A stretch of 38,819 nt of DNA, taken from positions 1 through 38,819 of the IMG/VR virus record IMGVR_UViG_3300032053_000204. The stretch is one strand, 5' to 3'. The position numbers and the translations under genes were made by a program. Below are positions 3,433 to 25,499 of this stretch, in pieces. Source of the DNA: a virus. Each line of letters opens with the position of its first letter. Position 1 is the stretch's first letter. The notes beneath the pieces are model-generated. The model did not search any database. It was not told where the DNA came from and saw only the letters and a list, made by a program, of their open reading frames with translations.

Positions 3433-3442
3433 AAGTTGCTCC

Positions 3443-3736
3443 TCAAAATGCCAACACTTCTTCATCCGACAAATTTGGTCCTGACACTATCACACTACAC
3501 CTACAATTCGGGTGGCTCTTTTCAAAAACTGGAGCGCTAAATCTCAGGTTGGCCACAAAATCTATCAACCTCCAACGCCTTCCGTGCAGGTTAATGCAGT
3601 GAGGGCAAGGGTCCCAGCTCTTATTCCACATAACATCTGTATATCCCCTAGCCATCAAATCGCGCAGCTGCCCCTCGGACTCGTCCTGAATCCCGGCTAG
3701 CTTAACTGCTGCAAGCTTCTTTGCGAATCTACCCAT
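3443..3736 (-). CDS. Short Mu F/SPP1 gp7-like head protein C-terminal module
   Basis: The 97-residue product carries the pattern C44-P-H-C47 followed by L-H-G and then H75-P-N-C-R-C80. This is the Cys/His signature at the C-terminus of phage Mu F / SPP1 gp7 minor head proteins. The long N-terminal part usual for that family is absent. The ATG at 3736 overlaps the stop of the 1304-residue upstream gene as TAATG, so translation is probably coupled. A TTG at 3763 is possible but has no better ribosome binding site. The role is inferred as a minor head or head-completion component. The stand-alone module is unusual and may reflect fission of a longer protein. Confidence 0.65.
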   Translation of the reverse strand: MGRFAKKLAAVKLAGIQDESEGQLRDLMARGYTDVMWNKSWDPCPHCINLHGRRWRLIDFVANLRFSAPVFEKSHPNCRCSVIVSGPNLSDEEVLAF

Positions 3737-6700
3737 TAAATAAGTCCTGACCTCAACAACCAAGACATGTGCCCGTGCTCACATCGTCCGTCTGGCTCAA
3801 CGCGGCAGCCGTCCGTGGCTTCAGCAACCCCGTCGTTCATCCACTCTTCCATCTCTTCCATTGAGGGAGCCTGCATGGTGGCCTTGTGCTTCTCGCCCTT
3901 CTTCCTATGGCAGGTCGGGCACTCATCTACTTCTACCAAAACGGCGGTCTTATTCTTAAAAGGTATCATCCACCTATTGCGGCACTTAGGACAGGTCATT
4001 GCTGGACTCAAATGCCTTTTATCCCTATGCTCCTCTCCTGCAGGGCTACCACACTTTGGGCACGCGCAGTCTTCAGGAACCTCATAGTACCCCAAGCGGT
4101 CGTCCCTGGTAATCTCTGAGGAGCCCTTCTTATGCGGGTCCACATGTTTCTCTAAGAGCTTGTAATAGTTCTGCTCGTCCTTACCCTTACCCTTTTGCCT
4201 CTGCTCTTCTAAATGGTCCTTGGCTATGTCCTTGGCATCGTCCTTGGCTTTGGCATCGTTGGCAGGCTCCACGTGTTCCATCTCAACCTCAATACCCTTC
4301 TTTAACTCGTCAGGGCTGTAAAGGTCGTCAGGTTGCCCGTCTGCCTTACCCCCTGGAATCTCTGCCACTTTACCTAACTCTGGATTCTCTGGATTATAAA
4401 AGTCCCCAGGAATGGGTCTCCCCAACCTGTTCTGCCTTGCACATTTATCGCAGGCATAGCTCTTACCCTCAAAAGCCCCATGTTCCTTGTACGCCCTTAT
4501 CAACACATCTTCCCCACAATAACTGCACCCACCTTCTTGCCTATCTCCCATAGCTGCAAATGGACCGTCTGTAATTCCGGCCTTCTTACCCTCTTGCTTT
4601 TTAGTCTCAGGCCCTTTATCTTTGTTAGGGCAAGGACGACCCATCAAGCAATGAGCACACATATTTGTCGTTGGGCTACCTGCGGCATAGCAACCACAAG
4701 GACAAACGTGCCTATCAGGTTCTGTCTTATCGAGCACCGCGTTCTTCTTCTCACCTACCTTCTTATCCAACAGCTCACTATAAGGCCGTGCCACCACAGC
4801 CATCTTCTTCCTAGCCTCGGCCCGGTCAAAGTCAGACATCACCTCAGCCCACATACCGTCCGGATGGCTCTCGGCAAGTTGGTCCGGCTCATAATGGTCG
4901 GCCACTCCCCAGCATGCCACCTTGTCCCCTATTTTAAGCCAGTCGAATCCCTCAGCAGCCCCATTGTCCGCGGCCCACTTCTCTGCCAACGGACCAGCCA
5001 TGCAAACCATTCTGGAATCTATGGTCGGCTGATTAAATAACTCGAATGCCGCCAGGGTCCTAATACCTACCTCATCCTCCAAGGCGCCCTCAACCGGGTC
5101 CAGTCCAAGAAGCTCAGTATAGAGGTCGTACGCCCAGTGCTTGATGTCGGCCTTGATGGTCCAAGTATCCTCAATATCGTCTGACTTCTCACCCTCATAA
5201 CTACCCATCAGTTTAGCGTCTACCGGGTCTCCTTTCTCCATGTAGTACGACTCTGAATCTCCCTCTTCCCTAAACTCCGAGCCTATGTGGAAAGCGTACA
5301 CCCAATACTGCCCTCCACCATCAACAGGGACCTTAGCTAAAATAAACTTGAACTTATCCACCATCTCATCGTCTACGTGGTTGTCCATGCTGAAGTTAGG
5401 CCAGTTCATCTTAACATCTCCACCGCCGTATGCTGAAACTACATAAACCCTGTCTGCCTGCTTACCCAATCCTTTTCCTAAGCAGTCAGGACAAAGCTCC
5501 CTAGGGCACCCACAATATTCTGTAGTGGATGGAACTGCGTGCGCTCCTCTACACTCCTTACGGGGAAACCATACATAACCGTCTCCTCCGCACTTCAGGC
5601 ATTTAACACTAGCCTCCTTCTCCTCCGGCTCGACCTTAACCTTAGCCCCACAATTCCGGCACTTAAATAGAAGGTGCGGAGCCCTAGGGTCGTCCTCTCT
5701 AATCCCTATCTCCTCCATGTTCACGCTATCACACTCCGGGCACCCCGTGCTTGCAACCTTAGGCCGAACCTTAGTAAAACAGTCCTGACATATGCCATGG
5801 GTAATAGCAGGAATGTCGTCTGAAAACTCTCCCTGAATGTGACCCATATGCTTACCACACCAGGCACAAATCTTCTGGGCCGTGGAAGCGGCTTCCTTCT
5901 CACCGCCTCCCTCATATCCCGGGTACCCTTTTGCACAGGCACCCCCTTCTATAGCACACATCTGACAAGCATAATTTCCCATCTTGCTAAAATCATGGTC
6001 GCTGGATGGATGCGGGCACTTATCACACATGTTGTTCCTACGCTCAAATTCCACCTTCTCATCTAAAGTCCAACCAGCAAAAAAATCACCCTCATCATAC
6101 CCCATGTCTTCCTCTGAAGCCTTCTTACTACCGGTTATACCTGCACACTTACCGCACAACCCGTCTACCAAATCCCCCGGGTCACCACAAACCTTGCACT
6201 CCCCAAATGAAAACTTAGGCTCTTTTCTGGCCACTACTTTGGAACCTCTCTTCTCGTACCTGCCTTCTTGGGACTGGGTGTCAGCCGCTTTAAGGCTACC
6301 AACCCTAGGTAGTGGCCCCAACCACGCCAGGTTATTACCTAGAGGTTCCCCACAAGAATCACAGTCCCCCACATGGTATGCTTTAGTCGAATTCTCCAAA
6401 CCCTTAGTGACAGCACAACCATTGCAAAAGTACTCGTACTGAGCCTCTGCCTGCTTCTGAACGCCCTTGAACTCCTTACACTCACACTCCCTACAAGGAC
6501 CGTACCCAGGCCCCATGTCGTTGGAATGCTCGCTAAAAACCCCTCCTCCCTTATGCCCACACTCACAAACCATTGGCCTGTGCGCTGCCTGTTTCTTAGA
6601 GCCCCATCGGTCCGACCCTCTCCTAACCGTAATTGCCGACTTATGTGGCTGTCCACAAAAACTGCACTTAAACGTAAGTATGTCCTCCCCCTGCATACCC

Positions 6701-7650
6701 TCTTCAATATTCAGAAACTCGGCCTGTGCCTCACCAACTGGCATGTGCTCTCCCTTACACTTAACGTAAACATCACCCTGAACCCCGTAACCATACTCAG
6801 GCTGTGCTTGCTTAAGGCGGGCCTGCAGCTCCCTCATCTGCCGCTCCTTAACCTCCTTTGGGCTCATCTTTATAGTAGGCTCCTTGGTCTTCTTAGTGGT
6901 CAGGTACTCATCCAAGAGCTTATCCAACCTCAGGCTCCTCTCCCTCTGAGTCATAACCGGGACATCTCTAGGGGTCTCGTAAACTGGCTTCTCTTCTTTC
7001 TCCAGGTTAGGATGGGCTGCCGTGGACTCTAGACCCTCCGACCCACCCGCATCATCAGCAAATACTTCCCTATGGGCCGTTTCTAAGTCCGTCCACCCAC
7101 TGTCTCCAATACAGTCCTTGCACATCAGGTATCCCGTCTTAGACGGATACGAATTAAAAGCCGCTATACTTGCATGGCAGTCAGCACATCCACCCATCAT
7201 AGGCAAACCCAATTCTTCGTAGTCGGCCCCGTTTGTTGCCTCCCTTCCAAGAACATGAGACGCCAATTCATAAATAGAAACGGGCTTTACTTGTTCCTCT
7301 GTCTCAGCGGTAGCGGGCGGCAGTTGCTCTGGAGCCTGCGGAGCTTCAACCGCTGGCTCAGGCTTAGGTTTGGCATACGTGCTCAACATCTTTAACGCCT
7401 TCTGCGCCTCCCTAGAATATGCCCTACCATCGAATCCCCACTCCCTAGCGTAGTCCATGAACTGCTGGCCTGTAATCTTCTTCAGGTCCGTAGCGTACAC
7501 CCCACCCATCTCATGCTCCATACCCCAAACCTCAACAATCGGGGTAGACGTATGAAGGTCACTTACAAGAATGCCAGGAAAGGACCCTGTATAAACGAAA
7601 TCCCCTTTCTGGAAACCCAAAGACTTAGCTGAAGCTGCTTCCTTTTTCAT
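3736..7650 (-). CDS. Giant zinc-ribbon array protein with DUF5661-like segment, 1304 aa
   Basis: The ATG at 7650 overlaps the previous stop as ATGA, with AAGGCAAGG upstream; a GTG at 7659 is less likely. About two dozen CxxC-type pairs run from residue 155 to 1250, for example CADC, CSFC, CECG, CRECEC, CKVC, CAWC, CPEC and CPTC. This suggests ten or more zinc ribbons strung along one chain. The N-terminal ~60 residues look like a small beta-barrel. Residues about 1110 to 1170 (GIEVEMEHV, then IAKDHL and YYKLL) match my memory of DUF5661, a family common in phage. Basic-Ala linkers (KKAS, KEAS, KQAD, KKAG) separate modules. It is probably virion-associated; nucleic-acid or protein binding is possible. 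No catalytic site is recognised. Confidence 0.8.
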   Translation of the reverse strand: MKKEAASAKSLGFQKGDFVYTGSFPGILVSDLHTSTPIVEVWGMEHEMGGVYATDLKKITGQQFMDYAREWGFDGRAYSREAQKALKMLSTYAKPKPEPAVEAPQAPEQLPPATAETEEQVKPVSIYELASHVLGREATNGADYEELGLPMMGGCADCHASIAAFNSYPSKTGYLMCKDCIGDSGWTDLETAHREVFADDAGGSEGLESTAAHPNLEKEEKPVYETPRDVPVMTQRERSLRLDKLLDEYLTTKKTKEPTIKMSPKEVKERQMRELQARLKQAQPEYGYGVQGDVYVKCKGEHMPVGEAQAEFLNIEEGMQGEDILTFKCSFCGQPHKSAITVRRGSDRWGSKKQAAHRPMVCECGHKGGGVFSEHSNDMGPGYGPCRECECKEFKGVQKQAEAQYEYFCNGCAVTKGLENSTKAYHVGDCDSCGEPLGNNLAWLGPLPRVGSLKAADTQSQEGRYEKRGSKVVARKEPKFSFGECKVCGDPGDLVDGLCGKCAGITGSKKASEEDMGYDEGDFFAGWTLDEKVEFERRNNMCDKCPHPSSDHDFSKMGNYACQMCAIEGGACAKGYPGYEGGGEKEAASTAQKICAWCGKHMGHIQGEFSDDIPAITHGICQDCFTKVRPKVASTGCPECDSVNMEEIGIREDDPRAPHLLFKCRNCGAKVKVEPEEKEASVKCLKCGGDGYVWFPRKECRGAHAVPSTTEYCGCPRELCPDCLGKGLGKQADRVYVVSAYGGGDVKMNWPNFSMDNHVDDEMVDKFKFILAKVPVDGGGQYWVYAFHIGSEFREEGDSESYYMEKGDPVDAKLMGSYEGEKSDDIEDTWTIKADIKHWAYDLYTELLGLDPVEGALEDEVGIRTLAAFELFNQPTIDSRMVCMAGPLAEKWAADNGAAEGFDWLKIGDKVACWGVADHYEPDQLAESHPDGMWAEVMSDFDRAEARKKMAVVARPYSELLDKKVGEKKNAVLDKTEPDRHVCPCGCYAAGSPTTNMCAHCLMGRPCPNKDKGPETKKQEGKKAGITDGPFAAMGDRQEGGCSYCGEDVLIRAYKEHGAFEGKSYACDKCARQNRLGRPIPGDFYNPENPELGKVAEIPGGKADGQPDDLYSPDELKKGIEVEMEHVEPANDAKAKDDAKDIAKDHLEEQRQKGKGKDEQNYYKLLEKHVDPHKKGSSEITRDDRLGYYEVPEDCACPKCGSPAGEEHRDKRHLSPAMTCPKCRNRWMIPFKNKTAVLVEVDECPTCHRKKGEKHKATMQAPSMEEMEEWMNDGVAEATDGCRVEPDGRCEHGHMSWLLRSGLI

Positions 7651-7922
7651 TTTATGCACCTTGCCTTAAGCCCACTCTCTCTTAAATTCGCGCTGAACAA
7701 TTCCGCGTCCTGGTCCGTCACCCCTAAATATTCAGCCCTGTTGGTCATTATAAACTGGTCCAAAGCCCATCTTGCGGCTTCCTGAGGGTCACAGCCACAA
7801 TCTGCCATGTACTCTTCCCGAAGCTCCAAAAAGTCCTTAGCTACAACCTTCCACACCATACGCCGAGTTCCTTCAGGAGTCTCGTACTCGGCCAACAACA
7901 AAATATCTATCTCTTTAGCCAT
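7647..7922 (-). CDS. Hypothetical small protein, 91 aa
   Basis: The ATG at 7922 has a TAGGGTGT ribosome binding site overlapping the end of the nucleotidyltransferase-like gene. Its own stop overlaps the next start as ATGA. The product is compact, acidic and mostly alpha-helical with an N-terminal beta-hairpin, and has a CGCD motif near residue 42. There is no membrane segment. Tight coupling to the giant zinc-ribbon gene suggests a shared expression unit. The family is not recognised. Confidence 0.65.
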   Translation of the reverse strand: MAKEIDILLLAEYETPEGTRRMVWKVVAKDFLELREEYMADCGCDPQEAARWALDQFIMTNRAEYLGVTDQDAELFSANLRESGLKARCIK

Positions 7923-7927
7923 ACACC

Positions 7928-8845
7928 CTAAATCTTCTTTTTCGCTGCTTTTGGCACATCTTTTACAAGGTTCTCCAACTCAGGCAAATCTCCCTCTTCT
8001 ACCTTCCTGTTATCGGTCAGCTTCTTAAATTCCTTGTTCAGCCACATGTACCCATACCGCCTTAAGTACCCTACCTGAAGCTCTGCCGGCATCTGAGGAT
8101 AAGGACCTGCAAACCTATCATCAATCAGCTCCTTAGTCCGACCAATGTACTCCTCAATCTCCTCGTTTACCTCATCCACCTTGGCGTCTATCTGCTCTTG
8201 GATAACTGCATGGAACTTAGCAGGGAACTGCGACATGGCCTCCCTCAGATACCCCACATCTATGGCATCCTTCTTAATCTCGGTCACCTGAAGCTGGTAC
8301 TTCTCTGACAGCCCAAGCACAAACTTCATCAGCTCTGGATAAACCTTTCCCACCACAGAAGTAAAGTCGGCTTTCTTAGGCGGCGTAGTCCACTCATCCC
8401 CATAAACATCATACATCCCCACGTTAGTAGGCAAAACTGTCTTGGATTTAATGTCCTCGTAAACAAAATAGAACTCCAAAGGATGCTCTGTGCCGGGAAG
8501 GTTGTGAGGCTCTGACTTAAGCTTCTCCTTCAACCCCTCCATCACAACCTTAGCCTGCTCCGGTTCTATCCCCCTCCCATACTCCAGGTCTGCTATCAAC
8601 CCTGCATTTACCACTACATCCACATCTGTATCCGACCCCGTGTTGTACTGATAGCTTGCCAAAGAGCCGGTAAGGTACACCCCTTTAACCCACTCGTCGT
8701 ACTTAGTAAAACCCAGTGCCTGAAACCCCTTGTACATCTCCTCCAGAATAAACGCCCTGTGTTGGGGCATCAGTTTATCGCCCGACCAAACTGAAGGGTC
8801 CAGGGTAGGTCTAGGCAGGTCCCACAACGAAGCCTTAATCTTCAT
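7928..8845 (-). CDS. Nucleotidyltransferase-fold protein, 305 aa
   Basis: Residues 55 to 80 read VYLTGSLASYQYNTGSDTDV and on into DVVV. This is the Pol beta-superfamily signature GS followed by a DxD pair (D74, D76). A later carboxylate in HPLEFYFV (about E124) could be the third metal ligand. The C-terminal half is helical and charged, with KKAD at about 147 and a Lys-rich end. The ATG overlaps the preceding stop as TGATG. The substrate is unknown. The gene lies among head genes rather than replication genes, so a virion-carried or modification role is possible. It differs from the PolX-like protein at 26402. Confidence 0.7.
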   Translation of the reverse strand: MKIKASLWDLPRPTLDPSVWSGDKLMPQHRAFILEEMYKGFQALGFTKYDEWVKGVYLTGSLASYQYNTGSDTDVDVVVNAGLIADLEYGRGIEPEQAKVVMEGLKEKLKSEPHNLPGTEHPLEFYFVYEDIKSKTVLPTNVGMYDVYGDEWTTPPKKADFTSVVGKVYPELMKFVLGLSEKYQLQVTEIKKDAIDVGYLREAMSQFPAKFHAVIQEQIDAKVDEVNEEIEEYIGRTKELIDDRFAGPYPQMPAELQVGYLRRYGYMWLNKEFKKLTDNRKVEEGDLPELENLVKDVPKAAKKKI

Positions 8846-9003
8846 CAGTCAGCCTTCTCATGCACAAAATGTTTACACCCAGTACAAAATATCCTATTGT
8901 ACAAACCGTCCTTGCTTACCACCTTACCCATAACCAACCCCTTGGTCTTATTACCACAACAGGAACACGTTATATCAATTGTTTCGTTCACGCTTATCCC
9001 CAT
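8845..9003 (-). CDS. Mini zinc-ribbon protein, 52 aa
   Basis: From the ATG at 9003 the product contains C-S-C-C-G-N-K at the N-terminus and C-x-x-C-K-H-F-V-H near the end, a four-Cys zinc ribbon. GGGAG lies about 13 nt upstream of the start. An upstream GTG (9033) is possible but would lengthen the overlap with the next small gene. The stop overlaps the nucleotidyltransferase start. The function is unknown. Confidence 0.55.
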   Translation of the reverse strand: MGISVNETIDITCSCCGNKTKGLVMGKVVSKDGLYNRIFCTGCKHFVHEKAD

Positions 9004-9124
9004 GGTGCGAAGTAGGCTCCCACGCAAAGCCACATTCCCTACAAAGACAGTGCCCTCCCTTGCCTCCCTGCCACTTCACCTTGTCTGAACGGCACTCTGG
9101 ACAACGCCTTGATTTACTGGTCAT
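8975..9124 (-). CDS. Mini zinc-ribbon protein, 49 aa
   Basis: An ATG at 9124, inside the end of the preceding gene (ATGACCAGTAA), opens a 49-codon frame ending at a TGA at 8975. The product has CPEC near the N-terminus and CLCRECGFAW in the middle, an orthodox paired-Cys ribbon that would be unlikely by chance. It overlaps the next mini zinc-ribbon gene by 29 nt in another frame. The ribosome binding site is weak, so expression may depend on coupling. Confidence 0.55.
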   Translation of the reverse strand: MTSKSRRCPECRSDKVKWQGGKGGHCLCRECGFAWEPTSHHGDKRERNN

Positions 9125-9809
9125 TGGTTTCAGGCATCCCTATAAGATACGAGCGGCCATAGTCCTTATCGTCCTGCTCCCTGGCCACCCGATAAGCCTT
9201 ACGAGCCTCCCTAATAACATTCCCGAGATGCCCTAAGGCCTTAAGCACATCTACATCCTGCTTATCCACAGCGTAAGCTACCGCATGAGGAATGACTTTA
9301 GTGAGGAAATCGGTAACCTCGTTAAGTGCTACCTTAATCTCCTCCTGCTTCTCCGGCTCAGAAGTGTAATTTGGGTTTGGATGGAATACCGCTTCTGGCT
9401 CATCCCTCGGCTTTATAGCGTTGTTATCCACCCAGTCCTCATCTGCCTTCTTGGTTATCTGCTGGTCCTTCTCACTCAAGGCATACATGGGATTATAAAG
9501 CGGCGAACTCTGGCGTTGCTGGAGCCTGTACGTATTGTCCATGACCTTCTTGAATGTGTTATAAGCCACCATCAAATCCCACACCCCTATAGTCGCCACC
9601 GCAGGTCCTAGTTGGTAAAGAGCATCCTTTATTGCGTCCATAGTGCCGGCCTGCTTACTAAAAGTCTCTATGGATAATGCGTCTAGGTGATGAGATAGGT
9701 GATGGCAGCGTGGGCACCGGGTCACCATGATACCGGCGCCCGAGTCGTTAAATACCGTGTCAAAGCCGGTAAGATTCTGCCTACATTGCTTACAAATAGG
9801 GCTGTCCAT
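9114..9809 (-). CDS. Zinc-finger-headed helical protein, 231 aa
   Basis: The ATG at 9809 overlaps the stop of a 45-codon gene as TAATG. The N-terminus has C6-K-Q-C9 and C32-P-R-C35, a zinc ribbon followed by a His-rich loop (HHLSHHLD). The rest is helical with two Lys-x-Ala linkers (KQAG at about 52, KKAD at about 120) and a charged C-terminus. It sits next to the portal gene and shares the linker style of the larger virion proteins. It is likely virion-associated, but the family is not recognised. Confidence 0.6.
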   Translation of the reverse strand: MDSPICKQCRQNLTGFDTVFNDSGAGIMVTRCPRCHHLSHHLDALSIETFSKQAGTMDAIKDALYQLGPAVATIGVWDLMVAYNTFKKVMDNTYRLQQRQSSPLYNPMYALSEKDQQITKKADEDWVDNNAIKPRDEPEAVFHPNPNYTSEPEKQEEIKVALNEVTDFLTKVIPHAVAYAVDKQDVDVLKALGHLGNVIREARKAYRVAREQDDKDYGRSYLIGMPETNDQ

Positions 9810-9946
9810 TAGTCAGTCCCTCCTACCTTTTCGTCCTGAACCTCAACCTTAGGCAGAACAACCTTTAACTCCTGCTTACCACCTTCCTTCTTCAAGACCT
9901 CTACCACCTTTAGAATCTTGTTCGGCGCACCTTGCTTTATAAACAT
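9809..9946 (-). CDS. Small Lys/Val-rich protein, 45 aa
   Basis: The ATG at 9946 is preceded by AGGAG with 6-nt spacing, and the frame ends in a TAA that overlaps the next start. The product (MFIKQGAPNKILKVVEVLKK and on to about residue 45) reads like a short beta-rich or amphipathic protein, with alternating Val/Lys. It follows the portal gene directly. The strong ribosome binding site and the exact fit into the gap support it as real. The function is unknown. Confidence 0.6.
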   Translation of the reverse strand: MFIKQGAPNKILKVVEVLKKEGGKQELKVVLPKVEVQDEKVGGTD

Positions 9947-9958
9947 GCTTTTCTCCTA

Positions 9959-11716
9959 TCAACCGGGAGTTACTGGTGAGGCTCCTTCTTCTGGAGCTGC
10001 TTCCTCTGCCCCCATACCGCCTTCCGGCCCTTCAACCACTTCCACTTCACCACCACCACCAGGACCACCACCAGCGCTAGGTCCACCCATGTCAACCGGC
10101 TCAGGGGCACCAGGCATCTCACCCGGCCCTCCCTTTTCAGGCTTTCCAGCAGCCCCACCGCCTAGTCTCTTGGCTATCTGCATCTGAACATACTTAGCCC
10201 TATAGTCCTGATACATAGGGTCAAACACAGTACCCTCTTGAGCCTGAAGCGCCTTGGCCTCCTTCTGTGGGTCCAGTCCAAGCACCCGAAGTAATGTAGG
10301 CACGGCAACCTTGGGAGTCTTATCCGTAGCCAGCCTCAGTATTGCCGACCTAAACGACTCCACATCCGACATATCAAGAGGATTTTCCCACTCAATCTCA
10401 GGAATAAGCAAGTCCTCATCTGTCTTACCCGACTTAGAAAGTGAGTCTGGCGTACCTTTATTCCTACGAGACACCATGCTCTTATACGCCTCACCTTCGG
10501 AAACCTTATAAAAACCGTGCGCTCTGGCTATAGGCTTAAGTATCTTTTCAGTAATCCAGGTCTCAATCATGGACCTGTACGCCTCATACCTCTGATTCTT
10601 AATAAGTCTGGCTATGGATGAGTTCTGATATGTCGGCCCCGTTCCGCTTATTTCGGCCATGTTAGAGAATAGTCCCAACAACACTCTCTCGTGTACAAAC
10701 TCAAACTCAGGAGCTAGCGGCAAAAGTTTACCTTGGCTACCAATATTCTCCACCTGAAAGGCATAAGAGGTAATAATGGCAAAGTTAGGGTCAAATGTGC
10801 CGCGTAGCAACACTTCTCTGAAAGCCTTTAAGTCCTCAAGCGTAGGTAGAATCTGGTTGGCCGAGTCTCCCAGCTTGTATATCCAGATGGGCCTTACATG
10901 AGCCGAAGCTATTTGCCACTGGGCCTCACGCAAAATATCCTCGTATAATAGTTCCTTAAGGCAACGAAGCGTAATCGAAGTCCCTCTAACGTCGTAAGGT
11001 GACGCTCTCCTCAACAGCATGCTTGCATTAAAAGGATGGCACTTTATAAAGGAGTTAGCAGCCACGGCATTTATAATATGCGGGTCTACATGCCTACGAA
11101 GCTCCTGGTCTATCGGGTCTCTCGAATTTACAAAGTCCTTTAGCGCCTGACTTGGCTCAATCTCAATGGTCGTAGCAGCAGCCCTGTGGACGAATGGGTG
11201 TGCCCTCAGGTGAACGTAATCAGGGTTTATACAAATCAACTGGTCAAAGATACCCTCGGTCTCATCCCACTGTAAATACGGAGCTGCTTCCCCCAGGTTG
11301 AAAAACTCCTTAATCATCTCCACGCCACGATTATAGACATCGCACTTATTTATGGCAGCATCATAGACCTTCATTATGTTAGGTTCCTTGATGCCTGACA
11401 AATGGAACTTGGACACAATCATTTCCCCGTGCATATCCAGAACTGCGCCTACGAGTGGGTGGAACCTTTGGTAATACCTTAGCCACTGATTAAGAACTTT
11501 ACGGTCTTGAGGGAAGTAAAAATTGACTACGTTTAAAAGCGGGTTACGAATCTGTGGAGCCAGCTGTTTAAAATCGGCTCCTTGTCCTCCCCCCGTGTTC
11601 TGCATACCAAAGCTGCCAAAGCCTTGCCCTAACTTGGACATCCCTCCACCCTTTGAAAGCCCTGGAAGATTAGGAACGAACTCTGCAAAAAACCTGCGGC
11701 CTGTATCTTCAGCCAT
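9959..11716 (-). CDS. Portal protein, 585 aa
   Basis: The ATG at 11716 has an AAGGGG ribosome binding site. Features fit a phage portal. There is an N-terminal Gly-rich segment, then a wing/clip region with QWLRYYQRFHPLVGAVLDMH near residue 80. A long mixed domain contains a helix-rich stem (NSSIARLIKNQRYEAYRSMI) around residues 360 to 385, followed by a C-terminal crown region. The last ~70 residues are Gly/Pro/Glu-rich and probably disordered. The portal ring sits at one capsid vertex, is the DNA channel and docks the terminase. It lies downstream of the terminase genes, as usual. The call rests on overall pattern and context, since no short diagnostic motif exists. Confidence 0.75.
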   Translation of the reverse strand: MAEDTGRRFFAEFVPNLPGLSKGGGMSKLGQGFGSFGMQNTGGGQGADFKQLAPQIRNPLLNVVNFYFPQDRKVLNQWLRYYQRFHPLVGAVLDMHGEMIVSKFHLSGIKEPNIMKVYDAAINKCDVYNRGVEMIKEFFNLGEAAPYLQWDETEGIFDQLICINPDYVHLRAHPFVHRAAATTIEIEPSQALKDFVNSRDPIDQELRRHVDPHIINAVAANSFIKCHPFNASMLLRRASPYDVRGTSITLRCLKELLYEDILREAQWQIASAHVRPIWIYKLGDSANQILPTLEDLKAFREVLLRGTFDPNFAIITSYAFQVENIGSQGKLLPLAPEFEFVHERVLLGLFSNMAEISGTGPTYQNSSIARLIKNQRYEAYRSMIETWITEKILKPIARAHGFYKVSEGEAYKSMVSRRNKGTPDSLSKSGKTDEDLLIPEIEWENPLDMSDVESFRSAILRLATDKTPKVAVPTLLRVLGLDPQKEAKALQAQEGTVFDPMYQDYRAKYVQMQIAKRLGGGAAGKPEKGGPGEMPGAPEPVDMGGPSAGGGPGGGGEVEVVEGPEGGMGAEEAAPEEGASPVTPG

Positions 11717-15214: not shown

Positions 15215-17335
15215 TTATAAGTCCAACAACAAATCGTCGCCGTTAATAGGGTTGAACAGCTCTTTCGCGGCGAATTGGTATGGTCCTACCTGCCTAGTCC
15301 CTTGTCCCCGTTGTACATTAGGATATACGAACTCATCTACAACGGTATTCGAGGCAGGCTGACCACTCTTGAATACATCTGCCGGCTTCTCTTCCTCTGC
15401 ATCCGTAACTACATGAGTCGAACTACCATCCACTCCCGGTATCCCTATTACCCCACCCTCACCAGTCGGCACACTCTTTCTCAAAGGGTGCTCATCGGAA
15501 CCAGGAAACCGAACCTTCTCAAACAGTAAAGGCTCCACCTTCTTTGCCTCTTCTGCAGCCTTCTTAAAGAGCGCTGCTGTTACAGGGTCGCTAATCTGTG
15601 GGTCCTCAGGTGCCGTTGTAATTTGCATCCTGTGGTGGGAAGGCCCTGCAGGATACCGGGTCTTCTGGAACCACTCGTCGCTGTCCGAACCCCTCTGGTC
15701 CGTTACCACAGGGTCTATAGCCGTAGGGTCCTCTTTCATCCTAGACACCCCTTGGTTTTGCTCCTTGGCGTCCCCAGGCCACAATGGCTCTAACTCAGGC
15801 CTCTTATGTTGAACGGATATATCATTTGGGTCCATTTCCCTAGAGCCTATACCACCATCATCTATAGCCGAGGTGGTCTGCATCCTATCCATAGTCTTCT
15901 TCATCTCTCTCCCAAAACACGTATGGCACATCCCGTGGGTATCAGGAAATCGAGGGTCCGACATCATCTCTTCCCCCATCCGCTTACCGCACCAAGCACA
16001 AATCTTAGCGTCGGCCTGTTTATCATACTCCGGCATTTTCGGCTGCCACGTACCCGAAGGGGCTATACTCTCAATGTTCTTTCTAGCGTTTAAAATACAG
16101 CCGTCCCCTAAATTAATGTAAGTAGTGTCCACAAAGTCAAACCCAAGCCTTACTAAATTATCAAACCATGCCTTATGTTGAGGATTGTTATTGGGGTCAA
16201 AATCTCTCTCTTCTACGTACTCCTTCTTAAATTCCTGTGACAACTTATCATTAGGCAAAGATTCTACACTCTCCTTGTCCAAAATATTTTTTGGATTGAA
16301 CTCTATCTTATAAATCTGTCCAAATATTTTACCCTCAGCCGTATAGACCTCGCCATCCTCATCTAAGGTATACCCTTCTACCTGACCCTCATTACAATTA
16401 ACAAATACATAATCATCAATAGAGCTTATATCCAATCCCTTCCTACGGTCTCCATGATACGTACTCTCATCGGCCTTCTTGCTAATGCGGCTCTTAATGG
16501 AAGCGGTCGTCTCTCCATTTTTCATCCACTGGAGAACCTGGTCCAACACAGCCTTCATAATAGGAGTCTCGTAGACTGTCTTCACGTCACCGGTCCCGTA
16601 GGCACGGGCCACAGCTTCTGCGGCCTTGCTCTCATCCCAGAGAGCACGGTTCCACTCCTGCAGCTTAATCATAGCCTGCAACGCCATTCCCTCCACAGTG
16701 TCGTTCCACAAACGCTTATTGTTTTCCCAAATCTTTTCGAGAACTTCTGGGGAGAAGTAGTCCTCTGCTTGAAAAACTGGCATCTCCTTAGCTGCTACTG
16801 CTTGACCCACATAAGGGCTGTGAGGGTCCCCTTCCCACTTATCAAGCATCTTTTTAATCGCGTCAGAAGGCACAGAATGAATATTCCTAACTGATTGCTG
16901 CTGTGGCAGCAACGCCGATGGCGTCGCATCCCCTACAGCATCTACATCCACTGAATATCCGTATCTCTCTGCCATTTCTTTATACGGTTCGTACTGACCC
17001 TCCTGAATGTTTGTATTATCTACAACCACTAAAGGGTCCCCTCTTTTCAACGCCTCCTCAAACTGCTGCCTGCACTTTGCGTGAGCCTGCGGCAGCTTTA
17101 CCGGGTCGAATACATACTCCCCGTCCTGCATAAAGTAATCGTCGGCCGATACAATAGTACCACCATACGCTCTAGACTTAGTGGATTTACCTGAACCTGG
17201 CAGACCTCTCATAATAACTACTCTCTTTTCTGCGCCGCCAAGGTCTAGGTCACCAGCGACATTAGCCCCAGGAGCCATGAAACTACCTGGCCCCTCAGAC
17301 ATGTCCTTCTGGCTCTTATTAACCCTATCTTCCAT
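15215..17335 (-). CDS. P-loop kinase-like protein with C-terminal zinc ribbon, 706 aa
   Basis: The ATG at 17335 immediately follows the upstream TAA. Residues 38 to 130 form an AAA_33/polynucleotide-kinase-like domain: Walker A GLPGSGKST (44 to 52), then IVSADDYF, a conserved FD, AH and C pattern, and VVVDNTN (103 to 109), as in N4BP2-type kinases. Residues about 300 to 425 (IYKIEFNPKNILD, later LGFDFVDTTYINLGDG) distantly recall ART-like domains of polyvalent phage proteins; this is an inference. A zinc ribbon C446-A-W-C449...C470-x-x-C473 matches one in the giant zinc-ribbon protein. KKAD, KQAD and KKAA linkers join modules. It is probably carried in or on the virion. The kinase substrate (nucleic-acid end or small molecule) is unknown. 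Confidence 0.7.
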   Translation of the reverse strand: MEDRVNKSQKDMSEGPGSFMAPGANVAGDLDLGGAEKRVVIMRGLPGSGKSTKSRAYGGTIVSADDYFMQDGEYVFDPVKLPQAHAKCRQQFEEALKRGDPLVVVDNTNIQEGQYEPYKEMAERYGYSVDVDAVGDATPSALLPQQQSVRNIHSVPSDAIKKMLDKWEGDPHSPYVGQAVAAKEMPVFQAEDYFSPEVLEKIWENNKRLWNDTVEGMALQAMIKLQEWNRALWDESKAAEAVARAYGTGDVKTVYETPIMKAVLDQVLQWMKNGETTASIKSRISKKADESTYHGDRRKGLDISSIDDYVFVNCNEGQVEGYTLDEDGEVYTAEGKIFGQIYKIEFNPKNILDKESVESLPNDKLSQEFKKEYVEERDFDPNNNPQHKAWFDNLVRLGFDFVDTTYINLGDGCILNARKNIESIAPSGTWQPKMPEYDKQADAKICAWCGKRMGEEMMSDPRFPDTHGMCHTCFGREMKKTMDRMQTTSAIDDGGIGSREMDPNDISVQHKRPELEPLWPGDAKEQNQGVSRMKEDPTAIDPVVTDQRGSDSDEWFQKTRYPAGPSHHRMQITTAPEDPQISDPVTAALFKKAAEEAKKVEPLLFEKVRFPGSDEHPLRKSVPTGEGGVIGIPGVDGSSTHVVTDAEEEKPADVFKSGQPASNTVVDEFVYPNVQRGQGTRQVGPYQFAAKELFNPINGDDLLLDL

Positions 17336-19912: not shown

Positions 19913-21028
19913 CTATATAGCAAACAGTCTTCCCTTGACTGGCGCTTTATTCCCCAACGACTCTGCTGTTATACCCGCTACATAAGGCATCCCGGCTCCA
20001 GGTATATTGTTGGCCGAAGCTCCGCCACCAATGCCCATCTTAATGACACCCGGCAATTCAGGCTTCCTAATCTTTGACAACCCTAAAGCAAACACACAGG
20101 AAGCAGCTACAGCATCCGAAAGGTCCTTACTACCGCCCTCTGGGTGGTCTACCTTCTTACCCTCAATCAAACTCAACCCTTGAAACTCTGTTATAAAAAC
20201 GGGTTCATAATAATAATCAATCCTTCCAGACAGCATAAGTTCAACCAAAGTATCGTAAGCCTCAGTGGTCCTGTCTACCGAATACTGCTTGACGTTATAC
20301 TTCTTCAGCGTCAGCTCCTGTTGAAATTCCACAGATTGCCAAGAATCTACCGACACCTGACCTATGCAAAATCCCAGGTTGGTAAGCTCATAAACTATCT
20401 GCCTGAACTTTTCAAGCCTGAGTTCCCCACCATCCGGAGGCCTTATGCTCAACATCAGGTCCACTACAACTTTATCCATGTGGTGGTCGTAGTGAGACAT
20501 AGCAACACCAGCCGCGTCCCTGCTCTTCGCCATATCAAAATGGATAAAATATTCAAACCCCTCTCCCCTAAACCAAGGCGCGAACGAGAACTGGTCTGAA
20601 TTTCTCCTATCCTTATACACCACAGGACAAATGCGGCCCTGGTTCACCCTTCTCTCTGCCAACATAGAGTCATGTACCAGGGGCTGAGCTGCTGAAGGAG
20701 GAGCTGAACCATAGTCCCTGGCTGCCTGATAGTACGACTTGGCAAACTCAGAAGCAAAATCATCCTTGGTCAGCTTAGGGTTCATACACCACGTACTTCC
20801 CCTTACCCCCAAAACTGAACCACAACGATAAATTTCAACCGAGTCCATACTATAGTCAGACTGGGTTTGTGACTCTACTTCCAGGTGAGCAGCCCCGTCC
20901 AGTATCGCTGCGTCTTGTTCACCCTGTTCGGCTGCATTGAACATTGGTAATAGCGGAACAGGTAAGGGCTTTACTTCCTCGCCCTTACCTACCGCTCTGC
21001 CGCTGTGATGGTTAAACGACGGACCCAT
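19913..21028 (-). CDS. Terminase large subunit, nuclease half (separate gene), 371 aa
   Basis: Residues 78 to 120 (STWCMNPKLTKDD and ARDYGSAPPS) match the linker found after the ATPase domain in large terminases. The RNase H-fold nuclease follows: FDMAKSRDAAG with D165, VSVDSW with D228, and GGSKDLSDAVAAS with D302 or D305. These are the three catalytic acidic positions of TerL nucleases, which cut concatemeric DNA before and after packaging. No Walker motifs are present. The ATPase half is a different gene (22069 to 23877), and an unrelated gene lies between. The ATG at 21028 overlaps the upstream stop as TAATG, so this is a designed start, not a frameshift remnant. Confidence 0.8.
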   Translation of the reverse strand: MGPSFNHHSGRAVGKGEEVKPLPVPLLPMFNAAEQGEQDAAILDGAAHLEVESQTQSDYSMDSVEIYRCGSVLGVRGSTWCMNPKLTKDDFASEFAKSYYQAARDYGSAPPSAAQPLVHDSMLAERRVNQGRICPVVYKDRRNSDQFSFAPWFRGEGFEYFIHFDMAKSRDAAGVAMSHYDHHMDKVVVDLMLSIRPPDGGELRLEKFRQIVYELTNLGFCIGQVSVDSWQSVEFQQELTLKKYNVKQYSVDRTTEAYDTLVELMLSGRIDYYYEPVFITEFQGLSLIEGKKVDHPEGGSKDLSDAVAASCVFALGLSKIRKPELPGVIKMGIGGGASANNIPGAGMPYVAGITAESLGNKAPVKGRLFAI

Positions 21029-22008
21029 TACTCAGCGTCCTTAACACCCGGCTTATTTTTCTTAATCTCTTCAACAGCACCTGGCAAAAACTCTACCCAA
21101 GTAAATTTTTGACAGTTGCACATTCTGCACTTCCCATGCCCAGCTTGAACTGTGTCCTCATGCTGGCTCCCGCCCCCATCACCAGTATGTCCGCACGAAC
21201 ACTTGCTCTTTCCACCGGCAGTCTTGTCCACTTTCAAAGGCGTGGATTCCTGAGGCGGCTTCTGTTTTGTAAGGTCCACAGACTTCCTTTTATCCAGGGT
21301 CTGCTTCTCGGCCGCAGTCTTTATCATATCCTTTACCAGGTTAGCAAAACGACCCCATGCCATGTTCTTAGGCTTACGGCAGGCTAGAGTCCTCATTAAA
21401 CCATCGAAAGGCCCTGTAACCGTCTTATTAGGACCAAACATCCCCTCAGTCCTAGCCTCTATGTACTGAGCTACCTGAGGGAGAATCCTTACAGCCATGC
21501 CCTTTATAGCGGCTGCATCATCGGCCCCAATACGACCGGCCTTAACCTCTGCGTCGGCCTTCTTTTCCAGGTCTCCAACCGAAGTAGGAAGAAAACCACC
21601 CTCTACCCAATCCAGCACCACAGGAACCAACGCAGCCTCAACTGCAGCTATATGGGCACTAGGGACCTTAACCGAAATGCCACTGGCGACCCTCTCTGGA
21701 GCACCTGCCGTAGAGTGCAGCGCTGCGGTCTTAACCGCCATCTTGTTAGACACGGCAGCCTGGTCCAAAATCTTTGCGCCTTCAGGGGTAGGCCCGTCGT
21801 GAACCCTAGCCAGAATGGGTCCCTCAGGTGACTCCACCAGCTGCCATATAGTCCCCAATCCCCAGTCCTTACCCGCAACCACCTGAGTCAGCACATACTT
21901 GCCGTCGTCCTTCGCCTGAAATGACTTCATAGTATCAGGGTTGGACTGAAGCTCAGCCAGCTTAATATGCTGATGCGACAACTTCTTACCGACCAATCCG
22001 CTAGACAT
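21028..22008 (-). CDS. Virion-type protein with C-terminal CxCGH ribbon, 326 aa
   Basis: The ATG at 22008 has an AGGAGG ribosome binding site. The N-terminal ~100 residues are mixed alpha/beta. The middle is helical with KTAA, KKAD and KTAG linkers. A ribbon C270-S-C-G-H...C-R-M-C-N-C-x-x-F302 matches ribbons in the 850- and 1304-residue proteins. It is inserted between the ATPase and nuclease halves of the terminase but shows no terminase or homing-endonuclease features. It is probably a structural protein that separates the two halves. The function is unknown. Confidence 0.65.
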   Translation of the reverse strand: MSSGLVGKKLSHQHIKLAELQSNPDTMKSFQAKDDGKYVLTQVVAGKDWGLGTIWQLVESPEGPILARVHDGPTPEGAKILDQAAVSNKMAVKTAALHSTAGAPERVASGISVKVPSAHIAAVEAALVPVVLDWVEGGFLPTSVGDLEKKADAEVKAGRIGADDAAAIKGMAVRILPQVAQYIEARTEGMFGPNKTVTGPFDGLMRTLACRKPKNMAWGRFANLVKDMIKTAAEKQTLDKRKSVDLTKQKPPQESTPLKVDKTAGGKSKCSCGHTGDGGGSQHEDTVQAGHGKCRMCNCQKFTWVEFLPGAVEEIKKNKPGVKDAE

Positions 22009-22068
22009 TTTACCTACCTCCTAATTTGTGCGCCCTCATTAGCCATACAAAAGCCTTTATGAACATTG

Positions 22069-23877
22069 CTATTTTTCGTCAGATATAGCCAGCTCCCTCT
22101 TAATATCCTCGATGGTTTCCGGCTGCCCTGCCTTCTGCACCACTTCCTTACGCAGCCCTGTTACGGTCTTGCAGAGATAATCGGTCCTACTCTTTAACGA
22201 GCTTATTGCCAAGAACTTGTAGCTGTCAGAAAAACGGGTCTTCATGGAGCCCTTAAGAACCTGGCAGATATCCTCCCCGTTATCCTTGTTCGCCTTTGAA
22301 ACAAACCACGAAAGCTCATCGGCCACAGCAGCGTAAATAGCATAACCACGCCATACTGTCGAGCCACTGTGACCACTTATGGCCCTTACCCTCTTTGAAG
22401 GAAAGAACATATCGGCATGACCTAAGGCAGTTCTCTTACTGAATTTATCGTTAAAATACCTACTGTTTTCAATAACGGCACAAAGCGTATCGAACACAAC
22501 GCTCTGAGCCTGTACTCCGCTGACCGATACGTTGAGCACAGTCAAAAGCGTATTCTTGCGAAGGCTGTAGTAGCTCCACGGGTCCTTAAGGTTCAGAAGC
22601 CAGTAAATGGCCCTTGCCAGAAATAAGGAACCCATAGCTGACTTGCCTGAATTGTGACCTACTACACCACCATCATGTATATAATTTTCCACCCCAGGCA
22701 CAGAACAATCGTAGTACTCCCCCTCCCCCTCACCCACTACACTTTTAACTCTAACCCAGTAAAAATCGTCCTCCTCAAGCGAAACGGGTTTTTCTTCCCT
22801 TATAGACTTTAAAACTTCCTCACAACCTATAATATTAATACTGTTTGCAAACCTTCTTCTATTAGAGGTACCCACTACCTGCAACACCCATGCAAACCCA
22901 TAAGTCTTATCTCCACACCTAAATTCCCTAGACACTTTCCTATATACCCGGGAAGCAACTCCAAACCGTAATAACAACCTACGGACTCCTTCTACCAACT
23001 CCTTAGACTTACTAACATAACCTATTTGATACTGATAACCCTTAGTGTTTTTCCGTATCCGCTTATCATGATATTTGTACCTACCGCACCAACCGTCCGT
23101 AGAAAACAGCCCTTCTAAAAATTTTGCGACATGAGTATCGGGCAAACTATATATCAAATCTGGCACAGTCTTATTATGTGCCACCCCTTTTCTTATACCT
23201 GGAAAACTACCGTCTCCAATCATGGCTCCCAAAAAGAAAGCCTCATTGGAGGTCATACTCTCTACAGGATTATTAATATACACTCTACGGCTTACAGCCA
23301 CCAACTCCCCCACCTTCAACTCCCCTGCTTTAACCCACCTAGTCTTGCTTCTACCCAGTACTACATGCCCCCAATTCTTGCTTTTACTGTACTCCCTGCC
23401 CAAGAATCTATGTCCTTGGTACACCCTTACTGATAGACCCCCAGCAAGTTCAACTTTAAGAATTTTACCCCTTCCAGAAACTCTGAATCCTGTAGCTGGT
23501 GATATACCACACCTACCTTCATTATACCCTACGGAAACAAAATCATTTTTAACACCCTCTACCCTTCTCCACAAACCGGTATTAGCGTCGTATACCTCAG
23601 AACCGGCTGCAATGCATCCCCTCCCGATAGCAAAATAGCCTTCTCGGTAGGTAGGTTTGTCGAACTCTTCCAGAATGGCCTGAACATTAGGCCAGAGGTC
23701 GCCCTTCCAGTCTGCGAAATCGGGAGAGAATAAAAACTCTCTCATAGGAACCGGCGGCTCCTCATACACCCTTTCAAGAAGGAGCCTGGCCCACTTGGTA
23801 GGAGTTAAGTCGTTCTTTTTCAAAAACGCCTGAACGCCAGGGTCCTGCAACTGCAACCACCAAAGATTGTCGTCCAC
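22069..23877 (-). CDS. Terminase large subunit, ATPase half, with intein
   Basis: The extein parts (residues 1 to 87 and 410 to 602) form a terminase ATPase. Walker A GRG|SGKS is interrupted by the intein. Walker B is YAIYAAVADEL (D520, E521), with a coupling motif FLAISS near 550. Removing the intein leaves about 280 residues, the ATPase domain only; the nuclease is encoded at 19913 to 21028. The ATPase powers DNA translocation into the prohead through the portal. The start is GTG at 23877, with GGAGAGG close upstream and an in-frame stop just before it. The C-terminus ends in a charged tail rather than a linker, so the break lies between the two classic domains. Confidence 0.8.
   Translation of the reverse strand: MDDNLWWLQLQDPGVQAFLKKNDLTPTKWARLLLERVYEEPPVPMREFLFSPDFADWKGDLWPNVQAILEEFDKPTYREGYFAIGRGCIAAGSEVYDANTGLWRRVEGVKNDFVSVGYNEGRCGISPATGFRVSGRGKILKVELAGGLSVRVYQGHRFLGREYSKSKNWGHVVLGRSKTRWVKAGELKVGELVAVSRRVYINNPVESMTSNEAFFLGAMIGDGSFPGIRKGVAHNKTVPDLIYSLPDTHVAKFLEGLFSTDGWCGRYKYHDKRIRKNTKGYQYQIGYVSKSKELVEGVRRLLLRFGVASRVYRKVSREFRCGDKTYGFAWVLQVVGTSNRRRFANSINIIGCEEVLKSIREEKPVSLEEDDFYWVRVKSVVGEGEGEYYDCSVPGVENYIHDGGVVGHNSGKSAMGSLFLARAIYWLLNLKDPWSYYSLRKNTLLTVLNVSVSGVQAQSVVFDTLCAVIENSRYFNDKFSKRTALGHADMFFPSKRVRAISGHSGSTVWRGYAIYAAVADELSWFVSKANKDNGEDICQVLKGSMKTRFSDSYKFLAISSLKSRTDYLCKTVTGLRKEVVQKAGQPETIEDIKRELAISDEK
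22651..23616 (-). mobile_element. LAGLIDADG-type intein in TerL Walker A, 322 aa
   Basis: The intein starts with Cys (CIAAGSEVYD) directly after GRG and ends in VVGHN before Ser, restoring the Walker A GRGSGKS. The N-terminal splicing block and the C-terminal block (ENYIHDGGVVGHN) look intact, with Ser as the +1 nucleophile. Two LAGLIDADG-like motifs, FFLGAMIGDGSF (residues 127 to 138) and FLEGLFSTDGW (166 to 176), lie only about 38 residues apart, much closer than usual. The endonuclease therefore seems shortened and may no longer cut. Insertion in the terminase P-loop is a known intein niche. Confidence 0.85.
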
Positions 23878-23887
23878 TACCTCTCCG

Positions 23888-24271
23888 TCACGTTTTCTTT
23901 TTGCCTACTTGGCTTATCAGAGCATTTACATCGTCCAGAACATCTCCTATTTCATCTACTGTACCGGCGTCTTCCGTATCTTCCTTCGGCGCAGTATCGG
24001 TATCCTCTTCTTCACTAGGCTGGCGTGAAACGGTAACTGATGCCTTGTTCCCCGCAACCTTAAACAGCCTATCTACCAGCTCCCCCATCATGTCCATCTC
24101 TTTGGACAGGGACGACGACAAAATCCTCTTACCCTCTTCCGTCTTGTCCCAAATAAGCTTCTCCTCTTTATATGCGGCATCCACCCTTGCCATCTGTATT
24201 CTGATTAGCTTGAGAAGCACCTTACGTAAATCTTTGGTGCCTAGTCCAGTCTTTGGATTTTTATATTCCAT
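23888..24271 (-). CDS. Possible small terminase subunit (TerS), 127 aa
   Basis: The ATG at 24271 has GGAG with 5-nt spacing. The product is helical for about 80 residues, followed by an acidic low-complexity stretch and a short helix ending in KKKT. It has one KASV linker-like site. It is directly upstream of the terminase ATPase gene, the usual place for TerS, and its size fits. No DNA-binding motif is clear, so the assignment rests mainly on position and size. Confidence 0.4.
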   Translation of the reverse strand: MEYKNPKTGLGTKDLRKVLLKLIRIQMARVDAAYKEEKLIWDKTEEGKRILSSSLSKEMDMMGELVDRLFKVAGNKASVTVSRQPSEEEDTDTAPKEDTEDAGTVDEIGDVLDDVNALISQVGKKKT

Positions 24272-24272
24272 A

Positions 24273-25499
24273 CTATCTCCAAAGCTTCTGGAAGTCTGCG
24301 AGAGAATTTATTTGGACCACTTCCGGCTTGCCCTCCAACTGCTTGTTTTTGCCGTTACCATTCCCGTTACCGTGCAACAAGGGGTGCGCTGGTTCGGTGG
24401 CCTGCGGTGGTGGGGGATTTTTTTCCACAGGCTCCGTATCCCGCGCACCCCCATATCGTAAAAACATCCTAGCCAGCATGTTCTCTACTCTCGGCTGACT
24501 ATAGTGGGAACGAGTTACATCCTGCATCTCCCACACATTAGAAATACATTCAATTAGGTCACTCCATGTTACTTTCGAGTCTGGTTGCACAACTTGAACT
24601 TTTATGCCGTTCTGGTGCAGGAACAACTTGTGTAGGTAATCCTCCAGACCCTTAAGAAAATCGGTAGGACCCATTGATACCAACCAATGTCGAAACAGGT
24701 CCACCCCATCCTTTATCTTTCCAGCCAGCATAAGGTTCAGGAAACGAGCATACACATCCTGACCACATACACCGACCAGAGCCATAGTGTCCTCGTCTAC
24801 CTCCTTCCCGTCCGATAACACCCACAGCTGCTCCAACAAGGTGATGGCATCCCTCATCTTGCCGGCTGACCTTCTTGCAATAGCCTCAAAAACCTCGGGT
24901 CCAACCTTAATTCCTTCCTGTTCTGCTATCTTTGTTAGCTGTCCTCCAACGTCCTCTGAACCAATGCTCTTAAAGGGAAGTGCAAAGGACCTGCTCATTA
25001 TGGTCTCCGGAACCTTCCTAACCTCCGTGGTCACAAATATAAAGACAACGTGCGGCGGCGGCTCCTCTATAACCTTAAGCATGGAGTTCCAAGCAGCCTG
25101 ACTCATCATATGACATTCGTCCAAGGTAACTACACGATACGCTACTCCAGGCACCTCATATCTCAAAACCTTCAGCAGCTCCTGCACATCGTCAACATTT
25201 CCATTTGAGGCCGCGTCTTGCTCTATGTACGCCAGCGAGCCTCCTGCAGTGATGGCCTTACATGAATCACAAACTCCACAAACATCCTCTTCAAAACTAG
25301 AACAGTTCAAGCCCTTTGCATAAATGCGGGCCATACTCGTCTTCCCTGAGCCTGCTGACCCATAGAACACCAGGCTAGGATAAATCTTCTTTGTCTTAAG
25401 GGTATTTCGTAAAATCCTTACAGGAACCTTCTGCGACACCACCTCAGAGAACTTAGACGGCCGATACTTAAGCGCTAATGCTTTATACACATCCGGCAT
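24273..25499 (-). CDS. dnaX: DNA polymerase III gamma/tau-like clamp loader, 408 aa
   Basis: The N-terminus KYRPSKFSEVVSQ is diagnostic of clamp-loader ATPases. Walker A is GSAGSGKT (47 to 54). A zinc module has C66, C74, C77 and C80. Walker B is LDECHMM (126 to 132; DEVH/DEAH in most relatives). Sensor 1 is FVTTEVRKVPETI, followed by the arginine-finger SRS (169 to 171; usually SRC). An AGKMRDAITLLEQ helix follows. The C-terminus has a Pro-rich linker and an Asn/Gly run, then ends with ADFQKLWR. It loads the sliding clamp, here probably the DnaN-like protein at 34563. The leader contains two hairpins, one covering the Shine-Dalgarno, and a promoter motif 179 nt upstream. Confidence 0.9.
   Translation of the reverse strand: MPDVYKALALKYRPSKFSEVVSQKVPVRILRNTLKTKKIYPSLVFYGSAGSGKTSMARIYAKGLNCSSFEEDVCGVCDSCKAITAGGSLAYIEQDAASNGNVDDVQELLKVLRYEVPGVAYRVVTLDECHMMSQAAWNSMLKVIEEPPPHVVFIFVTTEVRKVPETIMSRSFALPFKSIGSEDVGGQLTKIAEQEGIKVGPEVFEAIARRSAGKMRDAITLLEQLWVLSDGKEVDEDTMALVGVCGQDVYARFLNLMLAGKIKDGVDLFRHWLVSMGPTDFLKGLEDYLHKLFLHQNGIKVQVVQPDSKVTWSDLIECISNVWEMQDVTRSHYSQPRVENMLARMFLRYGGARDTEPVEKNPPPPQATEPAHPLLHGNGNGNGKNKQLEGKPEVVQINSLADFQKLWR

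Follow-up and report, generated by a model that had tools for sequence, protein, structure and literature searches.

Can the large terminase subunit (TerL) of a tailed phage be made as two proteins rather than one? The question is raised by a locus in IMG/VR record IMGVR_UViG_3300032053_000204, a linear virus fragment from a metagenome, the whole 38,819 bp of which constitutes the window analyzed here. Three open reading frames (ORFs) on the minus strand were confirmed at this locus, coding for a TerL ATPase, an unrelated protein of the middle gene, and a TerL nuclease (Table 1). In every checkable relative outside the clade described below, as well as in the published accounts searched, TerL is one polypeptide, with two domains that operate through intramolecular motion, and a review calls the nuclease domain a universal attached feature (PMC7824862). 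We confirmed that the TerL of this phage is encoded by two separate genes, as the initial annotation had proposed.

The two proteins were compared with the TerL family phrog_17415 (940 positions), which matched the ATPase protein at profile positions 376 to 559 (E 7e-9) and the nuclease protein at positions 605 to 797 (E 4e-11). Since these segments are consecutive, the two proteins represent consecutive parts of one TerL. AlphaFold models were then compared with the PDB; a profile built from fused relatives matched none of its sequences. The best matches of the ATPase model were P74-26 (4zni, Z 16.5) and T4 gp17 (Z 16.0), and those of the nuclease model were G20c (5m1o, Z 17.2) and T4 gp17 (Z 15.8). 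The mean predicted local distance difference test score (pLDDT) of the nuclease model was 77; in the ATPase model, the TerL parts mostly exceeded 80. Catalytic residues are intact in both proteins. The ATPase protein retains K412, D520, and E521, of which the latter two belong to the Walker B motif with its catalytic Glu (VADE) and are invariant in 36 sequences, and its coupling motif (ISSLKS) aligns with ISSPR of relatives, whereas the nuclease protein keeps three invariant acids (D165, D228, and D302), as is typical of an RNase H-like fold in TerL.

Each of the three genes has a start signal of its own: GGAG lies 5 nt upstream of the GTG of the ATPase gene, AGGAGG lies 8 nt upstream of the middle gene, and the start codon of the nuclease gene and the middle gene's stop codon overlap in TAATG. 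The ATPase and nuclease genes are 1.0 kb apart, and profile scans of the main ORFs in the 38,819-bp fragment revealed no further TerL. No single polypeptide carrying both ATPase and nuclease was found in the window or in the related clade. Thus, the earlier description of two halves with proper starts, an RNase H-like nuclease gene about 1 kb from the ATPase gene, and an unrelated gene in between was borne out.

That description had also placed Walker A, Walker B, and the coupling motif in one gene. The latter two are indeed there, but Walker A is discontinuous, as an intein had gone unnoticed. This intein spans residues 88 to 409 of the ATPase ORF and is inserted within the P-loop (AIGRG/C...HN/SGKS), such that a complete Walker A (GRG plus SGKS) is obtained only once it is removed. 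Reading of the sequence revealed Cys1, the C-terminal His-Asn, and Ser at +1. Its endonuclease domain matched Pfam LAGLIDADG_3 (E 4e-13, 50 bits versus a cutoff of 22.5), and its splicing (Hint) domain scored 35.0 bits with Pfam Intein_splicing, just below the cutoff of 35.8 (E 1.5e-8); most of the intein has low pLDDT in the AlphaFold model. From these motifs, the intein is likely to be competent for splicing. Because it interrupts Walker A, the ATPase piece would also need protein splicing. Inteins in or near the same motif were present in three other TerLs of the set (L011, L127, and L147). In L016 and L036, the TerL inteins occupy a second site, past the NMC/NMS position of the ATPase core and not in Walker A. 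Moreover, in L108, the gene after the nuclease (6963-9887) and the next one (9890-11641) each seem to hold an intein (CLSGDTPI...VHNC and CVLGDTRV...THNC, respectively).

Where does the break lie? In structural alignments of the AlphaFold models, the ATPase protein covers T4 gp17 residues 107 to 305 and P74-26 residues 3 to 213, while nuclease residues 111 to 321 align to gp17 355 to 561 and residues 113 to 315 to G20c 255 to 442. As the ATPase piece stops at gp17 305 and the nuclease match begins at 355, nuclease residues 62 to 111 are left for gp17 306 to 354. A weak hhalign match with T4 gp17 (E 0.047), used only for placing the break, put it opposite AAVEGKSGFEP, just ahead of YTAIW, a position consistent with the structural alignments. 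The lid of D6E, to which Y213 and R224 belong, precedes the linker at 230 to 241 (PMC5727402), and the structural match of the nuclease protein begins at D6E 232. These ranges place the break, according to the predicted models, within the ATPase domain, at about T4 gp17 residue 305, with the last core strand and the lid going with the nuclease. Hence, the initial assignment of the break to the boundary between the two classic domains did not hold, since it falls about 50 residues ahead of the nuclease match. AlphaFold predicted strands at nuclease residues 65 to 69 and 72 to 76 and helices at 79 to 106; sequence and predicted helices put residues 62 to 111 in the lid/linker position, and the structural alignments start only at about residue 112. 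The site is shared by all split TerLs: every ATPase stops no more than about 60 residues from the coupling motif, past the next helix, and the nuclease genes start ahead of the TW(E) strand. In fused TerLs, the loop at this site has about 1 to 40 extra residues (5th to 95th percentile).

The split relatives were found among metagenomic contigs. A first scan yielded 80 loci, 76 fused and four cut by contig ends, which suggested that the split was unique to the window. This was overturned by closer, split relatives, which surfaced with a tight nuclease alignment; when the nuclease, the portal, and the middle protein were scanned as single sequences against viral contigs, no relatives emerged. 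In total, about ten split lineages were found, seven with both halves in one record and three (L105, L108, and L305) with a stand-alone nuclease gene and no ATPase within the available stretch. In L091 (45% identity), the ATPase of which is free of an intein, the ATPase gene ends at 1332 and the nuclease gene, with its own ribosome site, starts at 1342, leaving a gap of 9 bp; a 696-amino-acid (aa) gene follows the nuclease in the portal position. The two genes overlap or nearly touch in L284, and the order in L098 is clamp loader, a 242-aa gene, ATPase, and nuclease. L104 has the ATPase at 252-1259, five small genes in a 2.2-kb spacer, the nuclease at 3417-4295, and then the next large head gene. 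The distance is far larger in G016 (129,940 bp), where the ATPase ends near 66.5 kb and the nuclease starts near 79.0 kb (about 12.4 kb apart), and in the 49-kb record G006, where the ATPase ends at 25,027 and the nuclease starts at 41,032 (16,004 bp apart). The G006 sequences recur identically in other contigs. The same split was seen in contigs of many data sets, several with 100% identical copies, and the nuclease and ATPase motifs are retained even though identity reaches only about 45% in the closest pair. No other TerL was detected by the searches made in G000, G006, G016, and G019, records that may be fragments. Three candidates were not counted as split: L156 is a fused gene with an internal frameshift, L155/G014 resembles a circular genome that was opened within terL, and L159 is broken in several frames.

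A tree was built from joined ATPase and nuclease segments of 97 rows, including nine split ones (L305 was left out). All nine formed one clade, with a Shimodaira-Hasegawa-like approximate likelihood ratio test value (SH-aLRT) of 99. In a nuclease-only tree, two split groups stood separately, and they were joined once the ATPase was added. Outside the split clade, there were 202 distinct fused TerL ORFs. Isolated phages provided only distant relatives (roughly 20 to 35% identical), and the seven opened at the matches have single-gene TerLs. Because the break is conserved, the split rows form one clade, the TerLs found outside it are fused, and the loop is variable, the sequences fit a single ancestral fission at a permissive, length-variable loop, followed by gene insertion. 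No such split was found in the isolate collection or in the literature searched, in which terL breaks are due to introns or inteins only (subscription papers lay outside the search). An exception is a short terL fragment that an endonuclease insertion left behind (PMC10054541). Publications that mention "separate genes" or a "nuclease subunit" of terminase proved unrelated to this split.

Could the halves be rejoined into one TerL chain, through an intron between them or a split intein ligating the proteins? Interruption of phage terL by group I introns and by inteins is well documented (PMC12363816; PMC11878797; PMC7156551), and the ATPase gene here does carry an intein. However, no intron family was found in the region (no Rfam match at E up to 1), no intein half is present at the break ends in the window or in the pairs of four relatives, and each half has its own start signal. 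Furthermore, the break stays the same while the spacer ranges from 9 bp to 16.0 kb and is filled with unrelated ORFs, so that an intron, a frameshift, or an assembly error is very unlikely. We therefore regard rejoining as very improbable, and the possibility raised at the outset that relatives splice out the middle gene as an intron found no support. The chance that the locus reflects an assembly error, a chimera, or a decaying pseudogene is negligible. The window record is a metagenomic fragment and the L098 nuclease has a frame break, both of which would favor such an account, but the recurrence of the split among data sets and the conservation of the break site and catalytic residues over a large divergence speak against it, and error is already refuted by the independent contigs. 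This agrees with the initial annotation, which had dismissed frameshifts and sequencing errors.

Alternatively, the halves could work apart, with the ATPase alone packaging DNA and the nuclease serving as a free or loosely bound cutter at the start and end only. Distances of up to 16 kb permit separate expression, and phi29-type motors keep their architecture without nuclease activity (PMC8589836). Nevertheless, the ATPase gene stops short of the predicted lid, a part that in TerL models shifts upon ATP hydrolysis (PMC5727402). With the predicted lid and linker fused to the nuclease, a lone ATPase piece would be incomplete, and we consider this arrangement unlikely.

Taken together, we think it highly probable that one ancestral fission gave rise to two polypeptides that reassemble noncovalently as an ordinary TerL. 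Gene 1 would make the ATPase core, the Walker A of which becomes continuous only after the intein excises itself, and gene 2 the last core strand, lid, linker, and nuclease. The two chains, once expressed, would dock noncovalently, with strand and lid placed onto the core as in a one-piece TerL, and the docked TerL would package DNA on the portal as usual. The fission would have happened a single time, in the common ancestor of this clade of uncultured tailed phages, and would have hit a loop that already varies in length among one-piece TerLs; genes would have collected in the gap afterwards. Several points weigh against this account. The support consists of DNA sequence and single-chain predicted models; the tree was built by a quick method, with the window and L284 on long branches; the split records are all metagenomic, none being a proven complete genome; the nuclease of L098 is broken as noted; and both ORFs of L091 are in one frame, so readthrough could yield some fusion. 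A bolder and rather doubtful possibility is a two-component motor, in which a ring of ATPase cores and the lid-linker-nuclease act as separate subunits, their contact being made and broken during packaging or having its own stoichiometry. Motion would then pass across a subunit interface, and the terL gap would collect the tagged cargo genes described below.

How does this TerL compare with known systems? Like the TerLs of tailed phages (T4 gp17, P74-26, G20c, and D6E; PHROG 17415), it has Walker A and B, a coupling motif, a predicted lid region and linker, and an RNase H nuclease with three acids; the gene order is ATPase, nuclease, and portal, and the folds match at Z 16 to 17. Unlike them, it consists of two polypeptides, cut between core and lid, with other genes between. 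Dassa reportedly described in 2009 fractured genes with split inteins (cited in PMC12350094), in which an essential gene likewise lies at two loci; here, in contrast, no split-intein halves occur at the break. Group I introns likewise leave terL in pieces on the genomes of Jug phages (PMC12363816) and Bastillevirinae (PMC11878797). There, however, the inserted segment is an intron, in many cases one that carries a homing endonuclease, and a single chain results from RNA splicing, whereas no intron was found here and the spacer ranges from none at all to 16 kb filled with genes. The intein-containing TerLs of cyanophage Mic1 (PMC7156551) and crAss-like OBYQ01000140 (PMC7886860) resemble the ATPase piece in carrying an intein with a homing endonuclease; they are made as one precursor, while in the window the nuclease has a gene of its own and the intein comes on top of the fission. 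Finally, split RNA polymerase and split DNA polymerase III of jumbo phages (PMC7824862) are large enzymes made as separate subunits, albeit different enzymes. The natural cut between ATPase core and lid suggests that the covalent link is nonessential in this lineage. It may allow motor coupling to be tested in two pieces, with ATPase, transmission, and nuclease mixed, swapped, and titrated separately. Genome surveys designed to detect full-length TerLs will overlook or misannotate these phages; Pfam Terminase_6N has no match in the split-clade records.

Table 1. Features of the split terL locus and neighboring genes in the window
Feature	Position	Strand	Basis or remark
TerL ATPase gene, 602 aa with intein, 280 aa after splicing; GTG start	22069..23877	-	ORF; phrog_17415; PDB match to TerL ATPases, Z 16
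N-extein, residues 1-87, ending ...FAIGRG	23617..23877	-	
322-aa intein with LAGLIDADG endonuclease, inside Walker A; begins with Cys, ends with His-Asn, then Ser	22651..23616	-	Pfam; boundaries by motif reading
C-extein with SGKS, Walker B (VADE), and coupling motif (ISSLKS), ending ...ELAISDEK	22072..22650	-	
AGGAGG ribosome-binding site of middle gene	22017..22022	-	
Middle gene, 326 aa; ATG start; no family; Cys/His-rich module at residues 270-306	21028..22008	-	
TerL nuclease gene, 371 aa; ATG start	19913..21028	-	ORF; phrog_17415; PDB match, Z 17.2
Nuclease product residues 62-111, predicted last ATPase-core strand (VRGSTW) and lid region	20696..20845	-	Predicted structure; structure/profile alignment
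RNase H-like nuclease, residues 112-320, D165/D228/D302	20069..20695	-	PDB match; invariant acids
127-aa gene directly upstream, candidate in small terminase position	23888..24271	-	Position only; no family match
Clamp loader	24273..25499	-	phrog_5846, E 9e-64; also upstream of split ATPase in L098
Portal protein, closest to Bacillus phage G gp14	9959..11716	-	phrog_16240, E 4e-56

The middle gene had been taken for a virion-type zinc-ribbon protein. Its virion type was not borne out, as no family or database relative was found for it beyond a 37-residue Cys/His-rich module shared, at 43% identity, with a 1,307-aa protein of the window (3736-7659). The spacer of relatives may be empty of genes, contain different ones, or contain many. 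As the middle gene lacks relatives and varies from one phage of the clade to the next, it is, as far as these comparisons tell, no part of the mechanism. In four records, spacer genes (L206 2525-17800, L281 10855-20332, L104 1189-3382, and L108 1-5955) carry shared N-terminal tags or modules, namely, PNS.G followed by E.N.CH.P.G...GGQF, or EAWSDAARAAAAAAR modules, on varied bodies. By eye, these bodies are ADP-ribosyltransferase-like, metallopeptidase-like, and P-loop kinase-like, and the tagged genes possibly encode virion cargo.

Among the neighbors, the candidate small-terminase position is occupied by other genes in L091 and L098. The nearest matches of the window portal are Bacillus phage G gp14 (32%, E 1e-72) and Virus Rctr197k; the TerL of phage G showed no match with TerL profiles, although its portal is the closest. 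Between nuclease and portal, a 706-aa protein (15215-17335) has an AAA_33/polynucleotide-kinase-like domain (phrog_2071, E 1e-25) and shares a 63-aa module (40% identity) with the otherwise unrelated protein at 3736-7659. In addition, a protein encoded at 27614-28198 matches phrog_1128 (enoyl-CoA hydratase-like; E 2e-16).

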